From Klebsiella pneumoniae (GTDB lineage Bacteria; Desulfobacterota; Binatia; UBA12015): a DNA stretch of 64,000 nucleotides. Below are positions 16,272-18,948 of this stretch, piece by piece. Below the pieces are notes generated by a model. The model had not been told where the DNA came from. It made no database searches and saw only the letters and a program-made list of their open reading frames with translations. Location: the NCBI GenBank assembly GCA_945872365.1, contig CAMBZJ010000006.1, positions 62,001 to 126,000 on the forward strand. The letters are read 5' to 3'. The position numbers were made by a program, and so were the translations under genes. Positions within the stretch are counted from its first letter, which is position 1. Every line of letters begins with the position of its first letter.

Positions 16272-17176
16272 GTGCTTCGCCCTGTCCCTTCTCCGGCTCG
16301 ATCGTCGCGCTGGTCACCCCCTTCCGCGACGGCAAGGTCGACTGGGCAGCGCTCGAAGCGCTCATCGAGGCGCAGATCGCCGGCGGTCAGAGCGGCCTCG
16401 TGCCCTGTGGTTCGACCGGCGAGTCGGCGACGCTCAGCCACGAGGAGCACACCGAGGTCGTTGCCTTCACGGTGAAGCGCGCGGCCGGCCGGGTACCGGT
16501 GATCGCCGGGACGGGCTCGAACGCGACCGCGGAGGCGGTGCGCCTCACCCGCGAGGCCGAGCGAGCGGGGGCCGCGGGGGCCCTCCTGATCTCCCCCTAC
16601 TACAACAAGCCGACCCAGGCCGGGATCGTCGAGCACTACCGGGTCGTGGCGGCGGCGACCGCCCTGCCGCTGATCGTCTACAACATCCCTGGTCGCACCT
16701 CGTCCACGATCGAGCCGGACACGCTCGCGCGCCTCGGCGAGATCCCGAACGTGGTCGCCGTGAAGGATTCCACCGGCTCGCTCGACCGGATCATGGACAC
16801 GATCGCCGCCTGTGGCGCGTCCCTCGCCGTGATCTCGGGGGACGATTCGCTGACGCTCCCGATCGTCGGCCTCGGCGGCGTGGGCGCGATCTCGGCGCTC
16901 GCCAACGTCGTCCCGCGGGAGATGGCGGATCTGGCGCGGGCCGCGCTCGAGGGCCGCTGGGACGAAGCGCGGCGGCTGCACTTCCGGCTGCTGCCGCTCA
17001 TGCGCGCCGCGTTCCTCGAAACGAATCCGATCCCGGTCAAGGCGGCGCTCGCGATGCTCGGTCGATGCGCCGACGAACTGCGCCTGCCGCTCCTCCCCAT
17101 GACCGCGGCACCGCGCGAGCGATTGCGGCGCGCCCTCGCCGATCTCGGCCTGCCGCTGGTCGGGGACCGGGCGTGA
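16268..17176 (+). CDS. dapA: 4-hydroxy-tetrahydrodipicolinate synthase
   Basis: A 302-residue class I aldolase condensing pyruvate with aspartate semialdehyde. Schiff-base Lys166 lies in VVAVKDSTG, Tyr138 in VYNIPGRTS, and the Thr/Tyr triad region is CGSTGES (about 48-54). The ATG overlaps the dapF stop (ATGA) and the stop overlaps dapB (GTGA). Length is standard. In many bacteria this enzyme is feedback-inhibited by lysine; the sites for that were not assessed. Confidence 0.95.
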   Translation: MSASPCPFSGSIVALVTPFRDGKVDWAALEALIEAQIAGGQSGLVPCGSTGESATLSHEEHTEVVAFTVKRAAGRVPVIAGTGSNATAEAVRLTREAERAGAAGALLISPYYNKPTQAGIVEHYRVVAAATALPLIVYNIPGRTSSTIEPDTLARLGEIPNVVAVKDSTGSLDRIMDTIAACGASLAVISGDDSLTLPIVGLGGVGAISALANVVPREMADLARAALEGRWDEARRLHFRLLPLMRAAFLETNPIPVKAALAMLGRCADELRLPLLPMTAAPRERLRRALADLGLPLVGDRA

Positions 17177-17994
17177 GCCCCGCCGCGAAGCCGCCCGTCG
17201 GCATCGTCATCGCCGGGGCCGCCGGCCGGATGGGCCGGATGCTCGTCGGACTCGCAAGCTCGAACCCGTCGCTGCGCGTACTCGCCGCACTCGAAGCACC
17301 CGAGCACCCGCAGCTCGGGGTCGATGCCGGGCGGATCGCCGGTGGTGCGGAACTCGGGGTGCCGCTCGCCGCGAGCGTCTCCGGGGTGCCTGCGGGCTCC
17401 GTGTTGATCGACTTCACCGCGCCCGAGCCGACGCTCGAGCACGTCCGTGTCGCCGCGGCGCACGGCTGGGGGGCGATCGTCGGGACGACCGGTTTCCGGC
17501 CGGAGCAGGAGCGCGAGATCGACCTGCTCGGGGAGCGGATCCCCCTGCTGCGCGCGGCCAACATGAGCGTCGGGGTGACGGTGCTGCTCGACGTCGCGAA
17601 AGAGCTTGCGCACCGGCTCGGCGGTTCGTTCGACATCGAGATCGCCGAGACCCACCACCGATTGAAGAAGGACGCCCCCTCGGGCACCGCCCTCGCCCTC
17701 GGGCGCGCGGTCGCCGCCGGACGCGGCGTCGTGCTGCAGGAACACGCGGTCTACGGTCGTGACGGCCTCGTCGGCGAACGTCCCGACGGCGAGATCGGCG
17801 TCATGGCGCTGCGCGGCGGGGACGTGGTCGGCGACCACACCGTCTTCTTCTTCGGGACCGGGGAGCGCATCGAACTCACCCACCGGGCGCAGAGCCGCGA
17901 GGCCTTCGCGGCAGGTGCCCTGCGGGCCGCGGCGTGGATCGCCGGTCGGCCACCGGGACTCTACGAGATGCGCGACGTACTGTCGGCGGCCTGA
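17173..17994 (+). CDS. dapB: 4-hydroxy-tetrahydrodipicolinate reductase
   Basis: A 273-residue NAD(P)H-dependent reductase following dapA. The nucleotide-binding GAAGRMG is near residue 14 and the substrate motif ETHHRLKKDAPSGTA is intact. GTG 17173 overlaps the dapA stop. An insertion of about ten residues after the first helix (ALEAPEHPQLG, then GADAG-like text) is within normal variation. The dapB stop lies only about 15 bases from the broken end of a convergent RRM gene fragment, so its 3' flank is a rearrangement junction. It ends the dap operon. Confidence 0.94.
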   Translation: MSPAAKPPVGIVIAGAAGRMGRMLVGLASSNPSLRVLAALEAPEHPQLGVDAGRIAGGAELGVPLAASVSGVPAGSVLIDFTAPEPTLEHVRVAAAHGWGAIVGTTGFRPEQEREIDLLGERIPLLRAANMSVGVTVLLDVAKELAHRLGGSFDIEIAETHHRLKKDAPSGTALALGRAVAAGRGVVLQEHAVYGRDGLVGERPDGEIGVMALRGGDVVGDHTVFFFGTGERIELTHRAQSREAFAAGALRAAAWIAGRPPGLYEMRDVLSAA

Positions 17995-18009
17995 GCGCGA
18001 CCGCCGCCC

Positions 18010-18171
18010 CTCGGCGGCCGAAGACATCTCGAGGAAACCGAAACCGCGCGACTGGCCGGACTCGCGATCGGTGATCACGCGTGCCGACACCACCGTACCA
18101 GCCTCCGAGAAGGCCCGCTGAAGGTCGTCGTTGCCGACGCTGTAGGGAAGATTCCCGACGAAAAGCCTCAC
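18010..18171 (-). pseudogene. truncated RRM RNA-binding protein gene
   Basis: From GTG 18171 (AGGAG seven bases upstream) 54 codons read as the first two thirds of an RNA-recognition motif. RNP2 is LFVGNL, RNP1 is SRGFGFLEM, and RVITDRESGQ lies between them. Bacterial single-RRM proteins run to about 80-110 residues with AIxxLNG and a final strand. Here the similarity stops abruptly at SSAAE, where the reading frame enters the dapB end and becomes antisense. The final helix and strand are lost, so a foldable RRM is unlikely. The translation signal is intact, suggesting a recent deletion. Confidence 0.65.
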
Positions 18172-18405: not shown

Positions 18406-18948
18406 ATGCCGCACCGGGCTTTCATCGGCGTCGGATCCAACCTCGGAGATCGCAAGGCCAACGTAGCCGAGGCAATCGTCCTGGTGGGCAAGATCCCCGA
18501 TTCCCGCCTCGCCCGGACCTCCTCCCTCTACGAGAGCGAGCCGCACGGCCCGGCGAAGACCCTCTTCGTCAACATGGTCATCGAACTCGAGACCGAGTTG
18601 GCGGCCCTCGACCTCCTCAAGCACCTCAACGACATCGAGGAGCAGATGGGTCGCAAGCGCGCGAAGCCGAAGGCGGCGGCCGCAGCGAAGGCCAAGCCGG
18701 CAAAGGCCGCACCCAAGCCGGACGTCTCTCGGGTGATCGATCTCGACATCCTGTTCTTCAATACCGAGATCGTGAAGACGTCCAAGCTCAAGATCCCGCA
18801 TCCCGAGATTCAGCGCCGCCGCTTCGTCCTCATGCCGCTTGCCGAAGTGGCGCCGCAGCTGATCCACCCCGAACTCGGCCAGACGGTCTCGAAGATGCTC
18901 GCGACCACCGAGGATCGCAAGCGCGTCACGCTGATGCCGCCGCGCTAA
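18406..18948 (+). CDS. folK: HPPK-like 6-hydroxymethyldihydropterin pyrophosphokinase
   Basis: A 180-residue enzyme of the FolK family, which transfers pyrophosphate from ATP to the pterin in folate synthesis. ATG 18406 has GGGAGGAAG upstream. IGVGSNLGDR, SSLYESEPHG, NMVIELET and the metal-binding Asp112/Asp114 (VIDLDILFF) are present. Between MGRKR (about 81-85) and SRVIDLD lies an Ala/Lys/Pro-rich insertion of roughly 22 residues in place of the usual short loop ending WGPR. The loop tryptophan is absent while the Arg before the DxD motif remains. No folP or folB is adjacent. Activity is likely but the altered catalytic loop is unusual. Confidence 0.8.
   Translation: MPHRAFIGVGSNLGDRKANVAEAIVLVGKIPDSRLARTSSLYESEPHGPAKTLFVNMVIELETELAALDLLKHLNDIEEQMGRKRAKPKAAAAAKAKPAKAAPKPDVSRVIDLDILFFNTEIVKTSKLKIPHPEIQRRRFVLMPLAEVAPQLIHPELGQTVSKMLATTEDRKRVTLMPPR

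Follow-up and report, generated by a model that had tools for sequence, protein, structure and literature searches.

We identified in the window (the whole 64,000-nucleotide stretch analysed here, contig C6:62001-126000) a FolK whose catalytic loop 3 was expanded by a run of alanine, lysine and proline residues. We consider it most probable, at roughly 0.86, that this protein is an ordinary folate-pathway FolK (HPPK) with a lineage-specific, disordered and basic expansion of loop 3, which is probably tolerated and at most would alter how the lid moves or how product is released. The activity, substrate and kinetic effect of the window FolK are inferred. The host genome (3.12 Mb, 57 contigs, 97% complete) belongs to Binatia/Binatota and is not a classical deltaproteobacterium, with Candidatus Binatia records among its closest relatives.

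Identification of folK and its extended loop 3

The features of the gene are as follows.

18406..18948, + strand: folK (HPPK, 180 aa), an open frame with Pfam and NCBIfam matches and the single match in its own genome
18652..18654, + strand: Arg83, start of loop 3, R in 124 and K in 2 of 126 distinct FolKs
18661..18726, + strand: Ala/Lys/Pro-rich stretch A86-V107 in catalytic loop 3, from sequence, loop lengths and low model confidence
18730..18732, + strand: Arg109, end of loop 3, R in 126 of 126 distinct FolKs
18739..18747, + strand: Asp112-Leu-Asp114, DxD motif for Mg/ATP, with both Asp residues invariant across all 63 aligned rows

The window protein, P0001, scored 111.8 bits against Pfam PF01288 (cut-off 25.7) and 113.3 bits against the NCBIfam equivalog TIGR01498 (cut-off 54.1), and it fell under the cut-offs of the narrower equivalogs NF010692 and NF007595 (234 and 252). 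N56, E78, R109, D112, D114, H132, R138 and F140 were invariant in all 63 aligned relatives, and R83 was nearly invariant. In E. coli numbering the catalytic and binding residues are N55, E77, R82, R92, D95, D97, H115, R121 and F123, with Arg83 the counterpart of E. coli Arg82 and Arg109 that of E. coli Arg92. The initial annotation had suggested looking for a second, normal folK, but none was detected in the host genome at its 97% completeness, and P0001 was the only HPPK match. A pseudogene or a duplicate folK was also considered and rejected, since the frame was intact and no other copy was detected.

The catalytic loop had at first been described as carrying about 22 low-complexity residues, without the usual Trp and with the Arg before DxD retained. 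All three points held: exactly 22 residues lay between GRKR and SRVIDLDIL, with 10 Ala, 6 Lys and 4 Pro (20/22), no Trp was present in loop 3, and the Arg preceding DxD was kept. Measured between the GR and SR arginines, loop 3 had 25 residues in the window FolK, 9 in E. coli and 10 in nearly all the same-family members compared, which gave a gain of 15 residues relative to the 10-residue sister-genus loop and 16 relative to E. coli. Judged from these aligned lengths, the figure of 22 counts the whole replaced stretch, of which about 15-16 residues are a net gain. When all six-frame ORFs of at least 100 aa in the window were scanned for at least 16 A/K/P with at least 4 K per 20 residues, folK alone was returned, so the insert was not chance frame noise. 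An insert of this kind, similar but not identical, occupied the corresponding position in the congener G001 (loci L032 and L112).

Structure model and the loop 3 lid

An AlphaFold2 model was built from a 63-row alignment and had a mean pLDDT of 89.6, with the blocks over residues 81-110 at 50-65 and the remaining blocks at 88-98. The top rows of a Foldseek search against PDB were all HPPK, and the best was E. coli 4m5n (E 4e-17, TM 0.80 on the query). The confident blocks together with these matches indicated an HPPK core with a predicted flexible insert.

In HPPK, the Trp is less important for the chemistry than loop 3 taken whole. PDB titles showed that E. coli HPPK has been crystallised as the variants R82A, R92A and W89A and with 84-89 deleted. 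According to PMC3261883, loop L3 is a mobile lid that shifts >20 Å over the cycle, the terminal phosphate is hydrogen-bonded by Trp89 in the ternary complex of the E. coli enzyme, and E. coli HPPK without loop L3 has unchanged ATP affinity and a catalytic rate constant about 10^5-fold lower, so altering loop 3 need not be harmless. PMC4790348 gives product release, dependent on loop movement, as the rate-limiting step. The claim that this loop closes over the ATP site thus agreed with what both papers (PMC3261883, PMC4790348) say of L3 as the mobile HPPK lid, and because loop 3 is that lid, a kinetic effect of the insert is plausible.

Loop length and Trp among relatives

To compare loops, 141 loci were sampled, a FolK frame was present in 137, and merging of identical or contained proteins left 126 distinct FolKs, which are not a random sample because the loci were picked by similarity to the window protein. 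Among the loci without a FolK frame, L132, L133 and L141 were other genes, and L125 was a short divergent paralogue missed by the search. Eight of 59 match rows were left out (G026, G033, G036, G040, G042, G049, G052 and G057), and these spanned at most 405 bases, so they contained no insert as long as that of the window. Arginine to arginine, loop 3 had 8-11 residues in 105 of the 126 FolKs, 15-20 in 17 and at least 25 in 4. The four longest were the window (25), its congener G001 (27), and, from a different family, G022 and G048 (30 each). A Trp at the loop tip is frequent in HPPK without being a defining feature. Trp was found in loop 3 of 69 distinct FolKs and was absent in 57; it was missing from 21/21 loops of at least 15 residues versus 36/105 shorter loops.

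The survey was extended to the class, where an HPPK match was obtained in 140 of 148 genomes (150 match rows), and only four rows exceeded 420 bases, namely the host genome G000 (435), G001 (441), G022 (450) and G048 (450); G002, the third genome of the window's genus (81% complete), gave no HPPK match. In the phylum sample 143 of 148 genomes matched (150 rows), and the window's row alone was over 420 bases, the next being G122 with 417. These span counts were read by eye, both totals of 150 were derived from genomes with one or two matches, and a match span covers the whole domain and so bounds loop 3 only indirectly. Whether the insertion is common in the family, which the initial annotation had named as a refuting observation, had a divided answer: at this length it was rare (4/150 class rows), but a milder, Trp-less loop 3 of 15-20 residues was present in 15 of 15 distinct Binataceae-type tree rows and in both f10 rows. 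The open-access literature searched had no account of Binatota HPPKs with a long loop 3, nor of low-complexity HPPK inserts.

A shorter HPPK-like gene was also observed in all nine sampled genomes of genus g24 (family f12), with 75-86 bits and a span of 336-351 bases; it lay beside a normal HPPK in seven genomes and was alone in two. On L125 (- strand, genome G034) this gene was near FolB-family and SDR-like frames, and it possibly belongs to a separate pterin pathway.

Origin and divergence of the insert

A tree was built under LG+C20 from 78 of the 126 FolKs (Binatia-range loci plus 11 from L053-L063) with the loop columns removed. The window FolK grouped with its own family in a 12-row clade supported at 100/98, and G022 and G048 were inside theirs. 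On this loop-free tree the long loops needed two changes; the starred branches forced two, the bootstrap trees gave two throughout, and the mid-length K/R-rich loops needed two further changes. Thus, the long loop 3 arose at least twice, separately, within Binatia. As both loops end in VSR, we considered whether folK had been acquired horizontally from the second long-loop lineage, and rejected this because the loop-free tree groups the window with its own family. The FolKs of L042 (titled Klebsiella pneumoniae) and L032 (titled Alphaproteobacteria) were also inside the Binatia tree, so these record titles look wrong.

The two long-loop pairs diverged differently. Over the residues aligned between G000 and G001, with two gapped, identity was 75% in the insert and 79% in the body, so the insert has been conserved to almost the same degree, consistent with some constraint. 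Between G022 and G048 the insert was 45% and the body 91% identical, and both inserts were still lysine-rich with Ala and Pro; divergent sequence with kept composition is as expected of a disordered tether.

Folate pathway and gene neighbourhood

The host genome had one GTP cyclohydrolase I (folE) and one dihydropteroate synthase (folP), and folB was not found in it (97% complete). One PTPS (L141, genome G000, C6:21648-22088) was located outside the window; it reads ERLHGH and lacks a Cys at the position known from QueD. According to PMC5041015, ExxHGH is the motif of PTPS-III, the folate-pathway subfamily, which bypasses FolB. From its motif L141 is likely a PTPS-III folate bypass, and since a PTPS of this kind is present and FolB was not found, the FolK substrate very likely comes from PTPS.

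One frame upstream of folK is needed here, which we take to be dapB-like.

17065..17994, + strand: dapB-like frame upstream of folK, from phmmer over folK loci; its true start may be inside the frame

A dapB relative was found by phmmer on 41 folK loci (a count in which one place can appear more than once), including members of both long-loop families and short-loop members of the window's own family. This recurrence on folK loci across many Binatia relatives supports orthology and is as expected under vertical descent. Between dapB and folK we also saw a cut-short RNA-recognition-motif gene (18007-18171, - strand), whose RRM match covers 1-49 of 70 and whose frame continues into dapB antisense past the RRM part. 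The congener locus L032 had a longer RRM frame ending in a Gly-rich tail, and RRM frames were present on L033 and L115 as well; the window gene may reflect decay or an assembly fault.

Discussion

HPPK is a well-studied enzyme and drug target, and loop 3 is its textbook mobile lid. A natural lid of 2-3 times the usual length, Trp-less and in what is apparently the sole copy, would offer a test of how much of the lid is needed. In the working model, FolK would move pyrophosphate from ATP to 6-hydroxymethyl-dihydropterin, with the pterin probably supplied via PTPS in place of FolB. Loop 3, the lid over the ATP/pterin site, has lost its tip Trp and gained about 15 residues to become a lysine-rich tether predicted to be disordered, and the catalytic arginines at both loop ends stay in register with DxD. 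These two arginines would make the essential contacts, and the tether would alter lid closing or product release at most. The insert is probably tolerated because the essential contacts would come from the loop ends. The effect of the lengthened lid is likely modest, and the protein would be a small variant of HPPK, with no evidence for a new function.

It is also conceivable, though we think it unlikely, that the loop is an adaptation, in which electrostatic capture of ATP, pyrophosphate or product by a flexible basic loop replaces the sealing Trp and a kinetic or regulatory advantage was selected. The two origins of long K-rich loops, the two further changes to mid-length K/R-rich loops, the missing Trp in every loop of at least 15 residues against about a third of the shorter ones, and the kept composition of the G022 and G048 inserts while their sequence diverged would all suit such a lid. 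However, the short loops of the sister genera are basic already (e.g. KRVKGKKWGS), so little net charge was added, the G022/G048 insert diverges much faster than the body, and the Trp correlation is based on few independent events. The wider form of this idea is slightly more doubtful again, namely that Trp-less Binatia HPPKs repeatedly evolved long disordered basic lids whose lysine-rich tether holds the ATP phosphates or product instead of a Trp plug; if true, the tether would give HPPK an alternative mode of lid operation.

A tolerated expansion in an ordinary folate enzyme also accounts better for the gene than a shift of FolK to another pterin-like or other substrate, which the initial annotation had raised and which we regard as very improbable. 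The catalytic loop is altered and its Trp is gone, and the pterin-contact segment of P0001 reads SEPHG where E. coli has TPPLG, but YESEPHG is common to P0001 and relatives of another family, some of them short-looped. P0001 is the sole HPPK detected, alongside folE, PTPS and folP in the same genome, its conserved residues are kept and the neighbourhood with the dapB relative is unchanged; a new substrate is unlikely because the folate setting is otherwise as expected. Least credible of all is that the insert arose artefactually in the sequencing or assembly of this metagenome-assembled genome, as the low-complexity and GC-rich insert DNA (74% GC versus 65% for the whole folK) might suggest, but the reading frame is kept, a separate congener genome has the similar non-identical insert, and the insert DNA showed no array of tandem repeats. 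Simple tandem-repeat slippage was likewise rejected as a visible cause, since there were just scattered 6-8 base repeats.

Comparison with known systems

The window FolK shares with bacterial HPPK (E. coli 4m5n) the fold, the DxD, both loop-3 arginines, the E, N, H and F positions and the single domain, and P0001 is 34% identical to E. coli 4m5n; it differs in its loop 3, which has 25 instead of 9 residues, no tip Trp and an Ala/Lys/Pro-rich composition. The Binataceae FolKs (e.g. Candidatus Binatus soli, L039) are of the same class and also have a lengthened Trp-less loop 3 with the arginines kept, but their loops of 15-20 residues are 5-10 residues shorter than that of the window, K/R-rich and not A/K/P-rich, and of separate origin. 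The FolKs of G022 and G048 (L113 and L114, family f4) are like that of the window in having a Trp-less lysine-rich loop with Ala and Pro, of 30 residues, but they represent a separate gain in f4, whose sister genera have Trp-less short loops, e.g. GRKRDPAKTSVSR. Outside bacteria, Rattanachuen et al. (2009, cited in PMC9182141) are reported to have described non-homologous insertions in Plasmodium HPPK-DHPS. Plasmodium HPPK-DHPS and the window FolK would thus both have lineage-specific HPPK insertions, but the Plasmodium protein is eukaryotic and bifunctional.
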